Shown in pieces: positions 1-53,240 of a stretch of DNA of 62,812 nt. The notes under the pieces are model-generated. The model was not told the origin of the DNA, ran no database searches, and worked only from the letters and a program-made list of their open reading frames with translations. Both the position numbers and the translations under genes were made by a program. Positions within the stretch are counted from its first letter, which is position 1. Each line of letters opens with the position of its first letter. Source of the DNA: Planctomycetota bacterium (GTDB lineage Bacteria > Planctomycetota > Phycisphaerae > Phycisphaerales > SM1A02); the NCBI GenBank assembly GCA_022574595.1, contig JACZRS010000022.1:1-62812 (forward strand), written 5' to 3'.

Positions 1-419
1 CCAAGGCTGGTAAACTGATCGGTCTCAAAGTCGTAAAGAAAGCCTGCAGTACCCAATTCCAGTTTTGTATTGTCGAAGTTACCCACGATCTTCGAGCCGG
101 AGATCGCGTCAGCCTGACTTTGACTGGTACCGTTCGGCATAGGGATTAGTTGGAGCCCATCCTCGGGGGTCCACAACCAGGCAACTTTCGGCCCTATAAT
201 GCAGGCTCTAAACGATCCAACCATCCACCCCTGTTCATTCAAACCAAACGGCAGCATCGGTGGAAATCCCAACGGAGGACATTCATCAACCTGCACGATT
301 GCCGTTACTTCATATCCGCCACATGGAACCTGCGCGCAAACATTATTTGAAGCAGCCAGTAGGCATATCGCCAAGCTAACCAATGTTAGGATTAGATGTT
401 TGTTATTTGTATTACACAT
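1..419 (-). CDS. HAF-repeat secreted protein, 5' part only (window edge)
   Basis: Only the first 139 codons lie in the window; the 3' end runs off the left edge. The product starts with a signal peptide ending near NNVCAQ, followed by the conserved CGGYEVTAIVQ segment and the first HAF-type repeats (motifs such as LNEQGWMVG and ISGSKIVGNF). It is nearly identical to the gene at 1742-3019 at a constant offset of 2600 bp, with about 25 differences in 420 bp counted by eye, 17 of them in the last 120 bp at the gene's 5' end. There it shares bases with the middle paralogue (450-1712) instead. The start at 419 is preceded by ATG-headed heptamers carrying a GAGG Shine-Dalgarno-like core. By analogy with its copies it should end in a dockerin-like tail. 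The function of HAF-repeat extracellular proteins is unknown. Confidence 0.85.
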   Translation of the reverse strand, partial: MCNTNNKHLILTLVSLAICLLAASNNVCAQVPCGGYEVTAIVQVDECPPLGFPPMLPFGLNEQGWMVGSFRACIIGPKVAWLWTPEDGLQLIPMPNGTSQSQADAISGSKIVGNFDNTKLELGTAGFLYDFETDQFTSL

Positions 420-440
420 GGCTCATTCCTCATAACTCAT
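417..440 (-). repeat. ATG heptamer run at gene start
   Basis: On the minus strand an ATG occurs every 7 bases (CAT on plus at 417, 424, 431 and 438), with units of the form ATGAGNN. The last unit is the start codon of the HAF gene and the unit before the penultimate one supplies GAGG as ribosome binding site. The same arrangement precedes the other two HAF genes. Confidence 0.8.
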
Positions 441-449
441 AGCTCTATT

Positions 450-1712
450 TTATACCCAATTACTAAAGAGGATCAGAAGATCCAATGTTGAAACAGTGCA
501 ATCGCCATTTAAGTCGGCGGCACAATCACCGCAATCATCGCAAGGCCCCCACGAGGCAAATAGGATTAGAAGATCGGCCACACTTACTGCACAGTCGCCG
601 TTTAGATCTGCCAGCGGCCCTTTGATCGGCGTTAATATGACAGCTACTGTGTCATTATCCGCATTGAGCGCTCGGGCGACAATCTGGCCACTGTTGTTTA
701 TAGCAGAGGCTTCTCGGATGGTTATGCCAGCGCCCTCAGGAATAAGATCGTTGAGATTGATCATCACTCCTTTATTCCAGACATACGGTTGATTGCTGTT
801 GGGAATATCACTTTGGCCACATTCTCCAATAACAGTCGAGCTATTATTGATATCAATCGCTGCACAACTATCTAAGCCGGGCAGTGTGCCAAGATCGGTA
901 TATTGATTATTTTCCCAAAGGAAAGCCCGAACTAGTATTACTACATCATTCTTGACTACGCCGTAACCAACTACTTGGCGCAGATCATTTATAGCGCTAC
1001 CGTCACTCGTAGAACCTCCAGGAATCGGGGGTAGCAATGTCATTCTGCCAGCTTCCCAGATAAATGCTCTGGCATCAGTAAGTTGTGAATTTCCCATCCA
1101 ACCCACGACCACACCAGCTTCATTTATATCCCATGCAGCGCTTTTTGGTCCGAAGGTTGGTTCAATAATAGTCATTGCCCCATCTTCCCAGATGTAAGCT
1201 TTGCCAAATGGCGTACCATCTGCGGTAAGGCCAACGATTTGGCGTTGGTCGTTTAATGCTGCAACCGAACTAAACGTGCCATCATTAGGCGGGTGGATGA
1301 GGATCAAATCTTCGCCATCTATGAGGAAGGCGCGCGTTCCTCCTATATCACTAATATCGACAGTGCCGACTATCTGCCTATCTGGATGATTGTTAATATC
1401 AATAGCTCGGCTCTGGGAGCTGCCCGGAGGCATTTCAAGAAGTTCCAAACCACTCTCCGGCGTCCACAACCAGGAAACATCCGGACCAATCACACAAGCA
1501 TTGAAGTGGCCAACAACCCAGCCAAGGTCGTTCATGCCATCAGGCACCATACCTGGAAAACCAAACGGCGGACATTCATCACTCTGAATTATCGCCGTAA
1601 CTTCATATCCACCGCAGGGGACTTGCGCGCAAACACTATTTGAAGCGGCAAAGAGGCATATCACTAAACAGGCCGTTGTTAAGACTAGATGTTTGTTACT
1701 TTTATTACTCAT
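450..1712 (-). CDS. HAF-repeat secreted protein with dockerin-like tail
   Basis: A 420-residue predicted secreted protein. Residues 1-30 form a signal peptide ending in SVCAQ. Residues 35-350 hold about six HAF-type repeats, recognisable as INN or IND, then two or three residues, then VVG (for example INDLRQVVGYG) and LGTLPG-like segments; TIGRFAM names this family extracellular repeat, HAF family. Residues 370-420 carry two calcium-loop motifs (DLNGDCAVSVADLL and DLNGDCTVSTLDLL) spaced by GPCDDCGDC, a dockerin-like tail ending in SNWV. It is the middle and most divergent of three tandem paralogues, 30 bp downstream of the 1742-3019 gene on the same strand. ATG heptamers precede the start. 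The role is unknown; export and a calcium-dependent surface or matrix interaction are inferred from the domains. Confidence 0.9.
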   Translation of the reverse strand: MSNKSNKHLVLTTACLVICLFAASNSVCAQVPCGGYEVTAIIQSDECPPFGFPGMVPDGMNDLGWVVGHFNACVIGPDVSWLWTPESGLELLEMPPGSSQSRAIDINNHPDRQIVGTVDISDIGGTRAFLIDGEDLILIHPPNDGTFSSVAALNDQRQIVGLTADGTPFGKAYIWEDGAMTIIEPTFGPKSAAWDINEAGVVVGWMGNSQLTDARAFIWEAGRMTLLPPIPGGSTSDGSAINDLRQVVGYGVVKNDVVILVRAFLWENNQYTDLGTLPGLDSCAAIDINNSSTVIGECGQSDIPNSNQPYVWNKGVMINLNDLIPEGAGITIREASAINNSGQIVARALNADNDTVAVILTPIKGPLADLNGDCAVSVADLLILFASWGPCDDCGDCAADLNGDCTVSTLDLLILFSNWV

Positions 1713-1740
1713 GGCTCATACCTCATAACACATGGCTCAT
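1710..1740 (-). repeat. ATG heptamer run at gene start
   Basis: Five minus-strand ATGs lie at exact 7-base spacing (CAT on plus at 1710, 1717, 1724, 1731 and 1738). The innermost is the start codon of the 450-1712 gene. The unit ATGAGGT gives the GAGG ribosome binding site. The ATG 14 bases upstream opens a five-codon frame whose TGA overlaps the real start codon. Confidence 0.8.
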
Positions 1741-1741
1741 T

Positions 1742-3019
1742 TTATCCCCAATTGCCAAATAAAATAAGCAAATCGGTGGTGGAAACGGTGCAGTTGCCAT
1801 CGAGGTCCGCTGGACAATTACCGCAATCATCACATGGTCCCCAATTGCTAAATAGTAGAAGTAAATCTACGGTACTGACCTGACAATCTCCATTGAGATC
1901 ACCCAGAGTGCCTTTAATAGGGGTTAATAGAACTGCCACTGTGTCATTATCCGCATTGAGCGCTCTGGCGGCAATCTGCCCACTTTCATTTATCGCCTCA
2001 GCTCTTTTGATGTGAAGGTGTGACTCTGGTGGGAGCAGATCATCGAGCTCTGTCATCTCACCATCTCTCCAAACGAATGCTGTGTCAGGCAGTTTGTTGT
2101 TTTGAAGATCCCGGGACCAACCTACAATTGTTCCGTCATCATTTAGCCCTTTAAGTGCCAACGAGGCGTACCCGTCGAGCATCCCCACATCGGTCCACTT
2201 GCCAGCTTCCCAGAGAAATCCCCCGCTAATGAATCCAAGTGGATGGTCTTCATTGAACTGACCGGTGACGGCGAGTTGAAGGCTAGTATTGATTTCGTTT
2301 CCCTGGCTCCTAAATCCGCCGGGTATAGGTGGCAGCTCGATGACGTTTCCCTTATCCCAGATAAACGCATGAGCGTCTGTAATGAGTGAACTTCCCATCC
2401 AGCCTGTGACGATGCCATTGTCGTTGATATCTTTAGGGTCGCTATTGAGAGTTTTAAAGTCAGGGTTGATATCTATCATTTCTCCGTTGTGCCAGATGAA
2501 CGCTTGCGGTATTGGAACTTCGCCTCCTCCCCAGAAGCCTACAATTTCACCCTTATTATTTATTGCGCGAGCTTCTGACCTATTTCCGCCTGGAAGAATA
2601 CCAAGGCTGGTAAACTCATCGGTCTCAATGTCGTAAAGAAAGCCTGCTGTACCCAATTCCAGTTTCGTATTGTCGAAGTTACCCACGATCTTCGAGCCGG
2701 AGATCGCGTCAGCCTGACTTTGACTCGTACCGTTCGGCATAGGGATTAGTTGGAGCCCATCCTCGGGTGTCCACAACCAGGCAATTTTCGGCCCTATAAT
2801 GCAGGCTCTAAACGATCCAACCATCCACCCCTGTTCATTCAAACCAAACGGCAGCATCGGTGGAAATCCCAACGGAGGACATTCATCAACCTGCACTATT
2901 GCCGTCACTTCATATCCACCGCAGGGAACTTGAGCGCGAACATTGTTTGAAGCGGCTAGTAGGCATATCGCCAAGCTAACCAATGTTACGATTAGCTGCT
3001 TGTTACTTTTACTACTCAT
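1742..3019 (-). CDS. HAF-repeat secreted protein with dockerin-like tail
   Basis: A 425-residue predicted secreted protein. A signal peptide (residues 1-30, ending NNVRAQ) is followed by HAF-type repeats over residues 60-360 with cores such as INNKGEIVGF, INDNGIVTGW and LNDDGTIVGW, then a dockerin-like tail (residues 375-425) with two calcium loops, DLNGDCQVSTVDLL and DLDGNCTVSTTDLL, ending GNWG. It is the first gene of the tandem set and the near-identical partner of the partial gene at the left edge. The tail region keeps high nucleotide similarity to the 450-1712 paralogue while the repeat region differs more, as expected if recombination acts on the ends. Export is inferred from the signal peptide; biological function is unknown. 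Confidence 0.9.
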   Translation of the reverse strand: MSSKSNKQLIVTLVSLAICLLAASNNVRAQVPCGGYEVTAIVQVDECPPLGFPPMLPFGLNEQGWMVGSFRACIIGPKIAWLWTPEDGLQLIPMPNGTSQSQADAISGSKIVGNFDNTKLELGTAGFLYDIETDEFTSLGILPGGNRSEARAINNKGEIVGFWGGGEVPIPQAFIWHNGEMIDINPDFKTLNSDPKDINDNGIVTGWMGSSLITDAHAFIWDKGNVIELPPIPGGFRSQGNEINTSLQLAVTGQFNEDHPLGFISGGFLWEAGKWTDVGMLDGYASLALKGLNDDGTIVGWSRDLQNNKLPDTAFVWRDGEMTELDDLLPPESHLHIKRAEAINESGQIAARALNADNDTVAVLLTPIKGTLGDLNGDCQVSTVDLLLLFSNWGPCDDCGNCPADLDGNCTVSTTDLLILFGNWG

Positions 3020-3040
3020 GGCTCATACCTCATAACTCAT
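3017..3040 (-). repeat. ATG heptamer run at gene start
   Basis: Minus-strand ATGs at exact 7-base spacing (CAT on plus at 3017, 3024, 3031 and 3038), units ATGAGTT, ATGAGGT, ATGAGCC, then the start codon. The run abuts the dispersed palindrome at 3042-3066. Confidence 0.8.
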
Positions 3041-3041
3041 G

Positions 3042-3066
3042 TTGCTCGGAATCCGCCGAGGCGGGG
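3042..3066. repeat. Dispersed palindromic repeat, family P1
   Basis: Contains the core TTGCTCGGAATCCGCC followed by a partner arm (GAGGCGGGG). The same core occurs at 53216-53240 in direct orientation and at 8136-8159 in inverted orientation, always between genes. Confidence 0.7.
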
Positions 3067-3339
3067 CTTCCTCCAAGCCTCATCCTCAGGCAAATAGGGA
3101 AATGCTGTACTTATTCTACGAGAAACTGGGCTAATTAGGCTAACAAAAACATCTTTTTATAGATGAAATTATTTTGGCTTATCAATCAGGGATAACACTC
3201 AGATAACAAGGCTTCAAGGCAGTTTGTCAAGAAAACTGTCAGTAAAACCGTCAGTAAAAGCGTACGTAAAACTGTACCTAAACACTGACAAGAAGTTGAC
3301 AATCCCCTGGTTATTGAGGTGATTGGCGGGGATCCCTGC

Positions 3340-5377: not shown

Positions 5378-5660
5378 ATGTCTTTCTCCCACATCGGCGA
5401 TAGCGCTTACGGCAGTTCTTGGCCGCTGGACACCCTTGTGCAATAAAGCCGGACAGATTTTACCTGTAGAAACCAGAAATAACAAAGAGATTTTGAAAAT
5501 TTGTAGAAAGCCTGCAAATAGCCTTAGGTAGCTAAATTAGAGCTCCGGATACCCATATACCTAAATGGAGTGATCGTCAACCTGCTATTGATTGGACATC
5601 ACTCCAGGCTAGGATGCCGTTGGAATCGGAAGTCCGCTACTCGATGCCATCCCCAATAAT

Positions 5661-5690
5661 GCCTAGTGCCTAATACCTAATGCCTAGTGC
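5661..5690. repeat. GCCTAAT/GCCTAGT heptamer repeat
   Basis: Four units with period 7: GCCTAGT, GCCTAAT, ACCTAAT, GCCTAGT, then a partial unit. A shorter version is at 3411-3420, and the first unit recurs in diverged form at 26190. Confidence 0.7.
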
Positions 5691-5700
5691 CTTCTTATTA

Positions 5701-7953: not shown

Positions 7954-8407
7954 TCGGTTCTCCTCATAATAGGTATCTTAGCCAACAGTCTATGCCTCGC
8001 CGCTACCATGAGTTGCCATCACAACAGCGTAGGTAGGCACGCCCAGATCACAGATATCGTAGCCGCGGGAATCCGGTCCGTCGTTGAGCGTGTCGAAGAA
8101 GCCGTTCGTGCAATCATTGCTCAAGGAGGATGTATCCCGTCTCGGCGGATTCCGAGCAATAAGAGGGATGAGTCCTGCGTAAAGCCGCGAACTTTTCCAT
8201 TGGCTTGGGGTCGCGTTCTTCGATTGTGATTGATTGCGATTTGTGAAGTGGATTTGTAAACATACAAGAGCCACGGAGTTAATTTATAAAGCCGTCCCGA
8301 ATCCATCGGGATGCATGGCACCCTGCCACGATGCCTTGATGCCTTCCTCTACCTTTCCCGCTATCCTATTGCAGTAGTCTTCAACTCACAAACTAACAGG
8401 GCAAGGC
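7954..8407. other. Intergenic region, no gene seen
   Basis: Holds an inverted copy of palindrome family P1 at 8136-8159. A weak hairpin, CCCGA with TCGGG, is at 8296-8309 in a context similar to the terminator at 21155. A GATGCCTT octamer pair is at 8331-8346. The frames open here are short and lack recognisable domains. Confidence 0.5.
8136..8159. repeat. Dispersed palindromic repeat, family P1 (inverted copy)
   Basis: Reverse complement of the 3042-3066 element (GGCGGATTCCGAGCAA on plus). It lies on the left side of the RhuM gene patch. Confidence 0.65.
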
Positions 8408-41359: not shown

Positions 41360-41475
41360 CACGGATTGCTATCCGTGGGCGTCGGGGGATAGGGATTTGC
41401 TATCCGTGGGCGTCGGGGATAGGGAATTGCTATCCGTGGGCGTCGGGGGATAGGGATTTGCTATCCGTGGGCGTC
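41360..41475. repeat. Tandem repeat of about 30 bp containing palindrome P3
   Basis: Four copies of GCTATCCGTGGGCGTC start at 41368, 41399, 41429 and 41460 (spacing 31, 30 and 31), joined by GGGGATAGGGATTT-like linkers. The first copy is the complete P3 palindrome also found at 3439. The array fills the gap between gcvPB and the Gfo/Idh gene and ends at the gcvPB stop codon. Confidence 0.85.
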
Positions 41476-47202: not shown

Positions 47203-47231
47203 AGTATAGCTGCAAAGGTGTCAGGAGTCAG
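47203..47231 (-). promoter_or_regulatory. Probable rnpB promoter, -35 inside the heptamer array
   Basis: On the minus strand TATACT (47208-47203) lies just upstream of the predicted 5' end of rnpB. CTGACT (47231-47226), 17 bases further upstream, is a 4/6 match to the -35 consensus and is formed by the first heptamer units. Confidence 0.5.
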
Positions 47232-47374
47232 GAGTCAGGAGTCAGGTGTCAGGTGTCAGGTGTCAGGTGTCAGGTGTCAGGTGTCAGGTGTCAGGTGTCA
47301 GGTGTCAGGTGTCAGGTGTCAGGTGTCAGGTGTCAGGTGTCAGGAGTCAGGAGTCAGGTTTCAGGTGTCAGGTG
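47221..47374. repeat. Heptamer array (TCAGGTG), 22 units, upstream of rnpB
   Basis: 154 bases of exact period 7: three TCAGGAG units, 14 TCAGGTG, two TCAGGAG, one TCAGGTT and two TCAGGTG. Read on the minus strand each TCAGGTG junction makes CTGACA, a 5/6 match to the -35 hexamer. Related heptamers in inverted orientation follow at 47453-47481. Confidence 0.95.
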
Positions 47375-47452
47375 CCAGCAAAGATAGGAGGGGAATATAG
47401 CTATCAGCTTCTGGCTAAAAGCAGACTGCAATTCTATTTCCTATCTTCTCCC

Positions 47453-47481
47453 CCCTGAAACCTGACTCCTGACTCCTGATG
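47453..47481. repeat. Inverted heptamers (CTGACTC)
   Basis: Units CTGAAAC, CTGACTC, CTGACTC and CTGATGC are the reverse complement of the GTTTCAG/GAGTCAG types in the 47221-47374 array, so the two could pair as a long imperfect hairpin. Confidence 0.7.
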
Positions 47482-52328: not shown

Positions 52329-52562
52329 GAACGATCATAGCTGCAAAGAAGGCATCAAGGCATCAAGGCATCAAGGCATCAAGTTTGACCCGTTTAGCCG
52401 GCGGGCTTGACCCGCTGCGTTATGGAAGAAGGCACTTGGCACTTGGCACTAGTGTAGATGGCATCATGGCATGTCTTCATTTCATACAATACGGACATTT
52501 CAAACGCAGCTTGCTATTTCCGGGGGGGCTAAGATGTAGTAAACTCCCCGGAGGATATTTCC
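52329..52562. other. Intergenic region with octamer and heptamer repeats
   Basis: Four GGCATCAA octamers (52351-52382), then a family P2 palindrome (52387-52422), then three GGCACTT heptamers (52431-52451). The ribosome binding site GGAGG of the PH-domain gene lies at the right end. No gene seen. Confidence 0.7.
52387..52422. repeat. Dispersed palindromic repeat, family P2
   Basis: CCCGTTTAGCCG, stem arms GCGGG/CCCGC, then TGCGTT. Opposite orientation to 3340-3375 and 10363-10398. Confidence 0.6.
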
Positions 52563-53192: not shown

Positions 53193-53215
53193 GGGAGAGG
53201 TGTCAGGCATCAGGT

Positions 53216-53240
53216 TGCTCGGAATCCGCCTATGGCGGGA
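53216..53240. repeat. Dispersed palindromic repeat, family P1, inside heptamers
   Basis: TTGCTCGGAATCCGCC, TAT, GGCGGG. It is flanked by GTGTCAG/GCATCAG units on the left and GAGTCAG/GTTTCAG units on the right, so the palindrome appears embedded in a heptamer run. Confidence 0.7.

Follow-up and report, generated by a model that had tools for sequence, protein, structure and literature searches.

Why does an ATG recur at exact 7-nt intervals in front of three neighbouring genes, each time with the gene's own start codon as the last unit? The question is posed by one end of a contig from a Planctomycetota bacterium of the order Phycisphaerales (JACZRS010000022.1, assembly GCA_022574595.1), all 62,812 nt of which were analysed and are called the window here. 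Three HAF genes, gene 1, gene 2 and gene 3, of a family that probably codes for secreted proteins, stand there in tandem in this order on the minus strand, with starts at 3019, 1712 and 419. HAF is the name used in an earlier sequence-only reading of this DNA; the Pfam name is DUF3466. That reading had offered nested micro upstream open reading frames (uORFs) acting by termination and reinitiation, a slip-prone tract that tunes expression, or no more than a heptamer repeat which happened to fall on the start codon. Our analysis supports the last option, because the repeat is found throughout the genome, mostly away from start codons, and because two paralogs have the same leader without an array. 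We put the probability at about 0.75 that a heptamer repeat was captured as the HAF start and that the row of ATGs is what the repeat spells.

Heptamer arrays in front of the HAF genes

Reading the minus strand confirmed an ATG every 7 nt up to each of the three starts. The upstream ATGs lie at −21, −14 and −7 for the genes starting at 3019 and 419, and additionally at −28 for the gene starting at 1712, which amounts to three upstream units in the former and four in the latter. Gene 2 starts 29 nt past the stop codon of gene 1 and array 2 fills almost the entire spacer; array 3 makes up most of the spacer between genes 2 and 3. The window has eight matches to ATGNNNNATGNNNNATG, whereas 100 shuffles gave 1.23 on average; seven of the eight are at the HAF arrays. 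As had been described before, one unit contains a GAGG, in the form of GAGGT in the arrays before 3019 and 1712 and of GAGGA before 419, 7 nt from the start. Since the 3′ end of the 16S rRNA of this genome reads GGATCACCTCCTTT, pairing with the GAGG of the array is plausible. Based on this GAGG at the usual 7-nt spacing, a translation start on the last ATG of the array is likely and the simplest reading. The 16S rRNA matches are spread over three contigs (C4:65-942, C1:11377-11782 and C31:9285-9444).

The small reading frames within the arrays before 3019 and 1712 have the lengths and stops that the sequence-only reading gave them, including the overlap at ATGA. The ATG at −21 opens five codons with a stop that ends 3 nt ahead of the HAF start, the ATG at −14 opens five codons whose TGA lies within the ATGA of the start, and the ATG at −7 opens four. 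Upstream of 419 the frame from −14 has 13 codons, not five; the start unit there is ATGTGTA. A tandem of ATGAGNN reads ATG AGN NAT GAG NNA TGA, therefore ATGs with enough units downstream open five codons and then stop. The nested uORFs follow from the unit sequence and carry no functional evidence of their own.

The repeat elsewhere in the genome and in other bacteria

Four ATGs at 7-nt spacing were found 20 times at 13 places of the genome, and the reversed pattern, which served as control, not at all. At four of these places, the three in the window and C18:238808, a HAF gene begins with the last ATG. At eight of the nine remaining places it opens just 3-97 codons. The ninth (L007/L118) has a frame of 501 codons from the last array ATG and was considered as a fifth array-start gene, but was rejected since the likely start, with an AGGAG ahead of it and a signal-peptide-like stretch after it, is about 180 nt farther downstream. 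Two of the arrays that start no gene (L004, L015) follow a co-oriented gene, beginning 9 nt past its stop codon.

The ATG runs are members, of the form (ATGAGNN)n, of a genome-wide group of intergenic heptanucleotide tandem repeats. In a strict count of tandem repeats in 790 kb, period 7 comes first with 20 runs of at least 11 matches, followed by periods 21 (11 runs), 14 (9) and 12 (7). In a looser measure on 853 kb it is again first (31 arrays), with periods 6, 12, 14 and 9 close (25, 24, 23 and 21); block-shuffled sequence gave 5, 2 and 1 period-7 arrays. Intergenic are 29 of the 31 arrays, in a sample of which 88% is covered by open reading frames (ORFs) of at least 100 amino acids; the gene models are simple ORF calls made without a gene finder and, therefore, counts of intergenic places and of starts are approximate throughout. 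The heptamers fall into several families (CCTGACT, GAGTCTT, GCTGATA, ATGAGNN and TGCCTAR), and different families adjoin in phase within single arrays (L040, L064). Several families have a TGA at each seventh nucleotide; counted together with TCA, its form on the opposite strand, TGA is the commonest triplet at this spacing, with 21 arrays in the 853 kb. A sense TGA array was found within 80 nt of 3 of 28 dockerin-type gene ends (30 loci, with L073 and L075 left out).

The window itself has further period-7 arrays, namely AGGTGTC (23 copies, 47216-47378), CCTGACT (2.7 copies, 47461-47479), GGCACTT (2.9 copies, 52431-52450) and TAATGCC (5 copies, 5657-5692). A unit of 31 bp is repeated 3.6 times at 41366-41475.

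As a general start signal the ATG heptamer was rejected on the profile of ATG offsets before 486 ATG-start genes in the 853 kb. The starts of these genes were picked with a simple score for ribosome sites, and the set excludes the window's gene 3, which runs off the contig. The profile has no clear period. An ATG is at −7 in 11 of the 486 and at other offsets in 1-18; the highest count, 18 at −14, includes three HAF genes. ATGs at both −7 and −14 precede three of the 486 genes, every one of them a HAF gene.

For comparison we used 60 relatives, all from other genera within the same family or order. The strict pattern of three ATGAGNN units followed by ATG is present in 3 of the 61 genomes including this one, and the other two are from different genera of the same family. 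Eight array places were read in these two, G036 and G023: two (L024, L030) begin 8-9 nt past the stop of a long ORF, and in two others (L022, L025) the array ATG opens 105 or 115 codons, which are putative ORFs. HAF homologs with an E value of 1e-30 or better number 12, in 6 of 40 relatives. The sequence-only reading had named, as grounds for its refutation, relatives that keep the HAF genes but not the ATG periodicity, and within 400 nt upstream none of the 12 has the ATG runs; the starts are partly uncertain, L160 and L162 lying in long fused frames. TGA five times at 7-nt spacing is found in 18 of the 61 genomes, often with inner letters specific to the genome, and the reversed TGA control also matches many of the same genomes, so that this pattern detects arrays in general. 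TGA-anchored arrays of relatives have the units TGANNGG in G045, TGANNGA in G053 and TGANNNC in G009; G026 has such arrays as well.

A scan of GTDB species genomes gave at least 116 stretches with at least 131 arrays, from cyanobacteria, Bacteroidetes and many others. Among the matches listed, the last array ATG opens an ORF of at least 100 amino acids in 10 of 131 cases versus 871 of 4598 other ATGs, a rate that is raised by the ATGs inside genes which the comparison includes.

Proposed origin of the initiation region

A conserved palindromic core of 25 nt is embedded in some of the arrays or lies beside them, as it does at array 1. A search of the genome with the last 16 bases of the core gave 28 matches, of which 20 are exact, five have one and three have two mismatches; the reversed 16-mer has none genome-wide. 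NTGA directly follows the core in 24 of the 28, in 17 of those as CTGA, and most cores therefore adjoin heptamers of other families. Intergenic are 23 of the 28. The 16-mer is the same in all three core-bearing HAF leaders, and the palindrome of C18_54k has one change. The core was not found in the 60 relatives when searched in a 3-nt-loop form, which caught only 10 of the copies in its own genome. Two more copies are in the window, at 53214-53229 on the minus strand and, with one mismatch, at 8145-8160 on the plus strand. Behind some of the heptamer arrays or cores (L003, L004, L007, L128) there is another palindrome, GCCGCGACC...GGTCGCG.

Ten HAF genes of this genome were examined. An ATG array is upstream of five (genes 1-3, C18_238k and C18_54k) and is absent from the other five (C9_107k, C23_373k, C4_78k, C4_130k and C23_100k). 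The leaders of C9_107k and C23_373k align with those of gene 1, C18_238k and C18_54k through the promoter and a GGAGGA to the ATG, and it is at this ATG that the extra piece, core plus heptamers, begins in the array-bearing leaders; C4_78k, C4_130k and C23_100k were left out of the alignment. From the position of this old start a uORF of 17 codons runs in all three core-bearing leaders. In C18_54k the likely start is beyond the array, thus not all array-bearing paralogs start on the last unit; a second array directly follows the stop codon of this gene. In the tree, gene 1, gene 2 and C18_238k are grouped with a support of 99/99.

We propose that a piece made of core and heptamers landed in an ancestral HAF gene, immediately past its start codon, and so would have split the old ribosome site and start from the remaining coding sequence; insertion is thereby preferred to loss of the piece in the array-free paralogs. 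A GAGGT or GAGGA unit may then have become the ribosome site and the last ATG the start codon, and gene duplication would have spread the arrangement. That there was a single insertion, with duplication afterwards, is likely, though short of proof. The tandem copies could have arisen by unequal exchange between arrays on either side of a gene, which would leave them with spacers of little more than an array; this fits because the spacers in the window hardly exceed one array and because C18_54k is flanked by arrays. The extra ATGs of the heptamers would be tolerated rather than regulatory.

Table 1 Positions of the HAF genes, their arrays and the leader features of gene 1 in the window
Feature	Position	Strand	Remarks
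HAF gene 1	1742..3019	-	425 aa; Pfam PF11949 (DUF3466), E 2.9e-10; no dockerin match
HAF gene 2	450..1712	-	420 aa; PF11949, E 1.9e-8; Dockerin_1 21.4 bits, below the cut-off of 22.9
HAF gene 3	1..419	-	truncated by contig end
Array 1	3017..3040	-	ATGAGTT ATGAGGT ATGAGCC ATG(start)
Array 2	1710..1740	-	ATGAGCC ATGTGTT ATGAGGT ATGAGCC ATG(start)
Array 3	417..440	-	ATGAGTT ATGAGGA ATGAGCC ATG(start)
Likely ribosome site, gene 1	3027..3031	-	GAGGT in the -14 unit; 16S 3′ end contains CCTCCTTT
Likely ribosome site, gene 2	1720-1724	-	GAGGT; read from sequence
Likely ribosome site, gene 3	427-431	-	GAGGA; read from sequence
Dispersed core	3041..3065	-	CCCGCC-TC-GGCGGATTCCGAGCAAC; 25 nt; abuts left edge of array 1
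Ancestral ribosome site	3083..3087	-	GAGGA; aligns with GGAGGA of two array-free paralogs
Presumed -10 box	3113..3118	-	TAGAAT; TATAAT in 3 of 4 other aligned leaders
17-codon uORF from ancestral start position	3023..3076	-	TTG in gene 1; stop ends 3 nt before HAF start

The presumed −10 box was not reported by the consensus scan. Gene 1 has an N terminus that, judged by eye, is signal-peptide-like and a C terminus that resembles the dockerin-type ends present across the genome. The fragment of gene 3 is 93% identical over the part aligned to residues 3-139 of gene 1, and its Pfam search gave zero matches. HAF gene 1 has 135 matches in the genome, mostly just to its C terminus, which indicates that proteins with a dockerin-like end are very numerous in this genome. 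The promoter and leader DNA of the HAF genes (L071, L072, L074, L077 and L079) is far more alike than the proteins, which have about 33-44% identity between groups, and this suggests a shared regulon or gene conversion. A Y1_Tnp (PF01797) match at C4:130305-130655 adjoins the HAF paralog at C4:130786-132009.

Several points weigh against the capture of an inserted repeat as just proposed. The comparisons include no same-genus genome that could display the empty site directly. The upstream DNA of C4_78k, C4_130k and C23_100k is different, and the leader is common to only two of the five array-free paralogs; upstream of C4_78k there is, moreover, an array of the heptamer CCTGACA. The tree joins C18_54k with the array-free C4_78k and C23_100k, weakly (78/92), and given this placement more than one insertion, or losses, would be possible. 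Six of the 28 cores have an ORF start no more than 40 nt away, and besides those of the three HAF leaders these include three non-HAF cores (the rejected L007/L118 case, L115 and L126). The core 16-mer is the same before proteins that are about 44% identical, which may reflect constraint or gene conversion. Finally, the four array-start genes all have ATGAGCC as their −7 unit and a G next to the GAG of their −14 unit. This could result from selection on an initiation region, although shared descent explains it.

Reinitiation, as suggested by the sequence-only reading, has to be considered in two versions. That the heptamer ATGs capture ribosomes and that termination at the overlapping ATGA sets HAF expression is very improbable: the frames opened at −21, −14 and −7 do stop near the HAF start, but these stops are forced by the unit, and equal runs are present at nine places without a likely gene start. 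In addition, a scan of the leaders matched a ribosome site to just two array ATGs, −7 in C18_238k and −23 in C18_54k, the 12 homologs in relatives have no ATG runs upstream, and ATG is not in excess at −7 among the 486 starts. A version via a different uORF stays in the field: ribosomes that end the 17-codon uORF might reinitiate on HAF, and the insertion would then have made a coupled start out of a plain one. We regard this as possible yet doubtful; it is compatible with the origin by insertion. The uORF is found in each of the three core-bearing leaders, is preceded by a ribosome-site match (GGAGG in C18_238k and C18_54k, GAGG in gene 1) and, in gene 1 and C18_238k, ends 3 nt short of the HAF start. 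However, it begins with TTG in gene 1 (ATG in C18_238k and C18_54k), genes 2 and 3 are without it, and in C18_54k its stop is 19 nt away from the likely start, or, should the gene begin at the in-frame ATG at −30, overlaps that ATG. The 17-codon peptide is mostly dispersed core, hence its likeness between paralogs is no sign of coding constraint. An unusual structure of the leader RNA was rejected, since folding of the three core-bearing leaders gave z-scores of −0.53, 0.04 and 1.63, which is nothing unusual. It is tempting to speculate on a wider scenario, in which TGA-anchored heptamers, in families that many genomes of the order have each of their own and here with the core, spread between genes, were taken up at HAF as a new initiation region that left the displaced start as a coupled 17-codon leader peptide, and drove the tandem duplication by their arrays, but as a whole we consider it rather unlikely.

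The slip-prone tract, in which gain or loss of units between GAGG and start would alter the spacing and switch expression, is in our estimate very improbable. The copies do differ in unit number (three versus four upstream units), and 7-nt-step indels between strains are reported for another heptamer repeat (PMC4679880), but the units here are few and imperfect, the two start-adjacent units are constant in all four array-start genes and changes upstream of GAGG leave frame and spacing as they are. Hardly any credence is given to a tract in which TGA every 7 nt stops all three frames and insulates neighbouring genes. It would agree with the rank of TGA/TCA among the 7-nt-spaced triplets and with 13 sense versus 3 antisense TGA arrays in co-directional gaps of the first 853 kb, but the arrays collected later were 14 sense and 10 antisense, and sense arrays capture incoming reading frames, so that a bias arises without function. 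The pooled ratio of 27:13 (p 0.04) has the discovery set included, and the stop tract was not upheld; left out of this test were C49 and C54 of G045, C64 and C72 of G053, some G000 places and other genomes with TGA-array matches.

Comparison with known intergenic repeats

Direct repeats of the heptanucleotide TAACTGA are described for Beggiatoaceae, cyanobacteria and Bacteroidetes, and one genome has most of its sets directly before start codons, over the ribosome site (MacGregor 2015, PMC4679880). The arrays described here are like them in the 7-nt units, the intergenic bias, the several copies per site and the stops forced in forward orientation (PMC4679880). In sequence they do not belong to the TAACTGA subtype: the units are ATGAGNN/TGANNNN in several families, none of which reads TAACTGA. 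They differ also in that the unit itself probably supplies both the start codon and the GAGG site, in that a palindromic core is embedded, and in that the use as a start is seen, so far, in one gene lineage only. G-rich, quadruplex-forming heptamers of the type GGGNATC are reported from Xanthomonas and Nostoc by Rehm (2015, PMC4692102), who also cites earlier heptamers in Calothrix. With these our arrays share the dispersal and the enrichment in non-coding DNA, but the units are of another sequence.

The core recalls a further class, the repetitive extragenic palindromic (REP) elements, for which GGAG is known as a tag. The REP literature also names GTAG and REP-associated Y1 transposases (PMC2817692, PMC3733652). 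The core is likewise a short palindromic intergenic element in tens of copies, and the genome holds Y1_Tnp genes (seven matches, six above cut-off). However, neither GTAG nor GGAG directly precedes the palindrome in the core copies read, where the bases 5′ of CCCGCC are mostly ACT, AGT or GC, and no core flanks a Y1 transposase gene, the nearest on a shared contig being about 18 kb away. Unlike REP elements, most cores adjoin heptamers.

Literature searches on heptanucleotide or intergenic tandem repeats in Planctomycetes found no paper, and the degenerate TGA-anchored heptamers with an embedded core merit a survey of their own. The paralogs of this one genome have a dispersed simple repeat at a start codon, where it probably supplies ribosome site and start, and the gene would thereby outlive an insertion expected to break it. 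There is a trap in this: any heptamer that contains ATGA automatically yields evenly spaced ATGs and tiny uORFs that seem designed. The pattern is real and instructive, and it is mostly accounted for by a known kind of repeat. Direct 7-nt tandems above chance, dispersal over 13 places and the non-coding bias (29 of 31) are what characterizes intergenic heptanucleotide tandem repeats, and by the features tested the HAF case belongs with them. It differs from them in that both start codon and ribosome site probably come from the unit, that the core is embedded, and that paralogs present the same leader with and without the piece.

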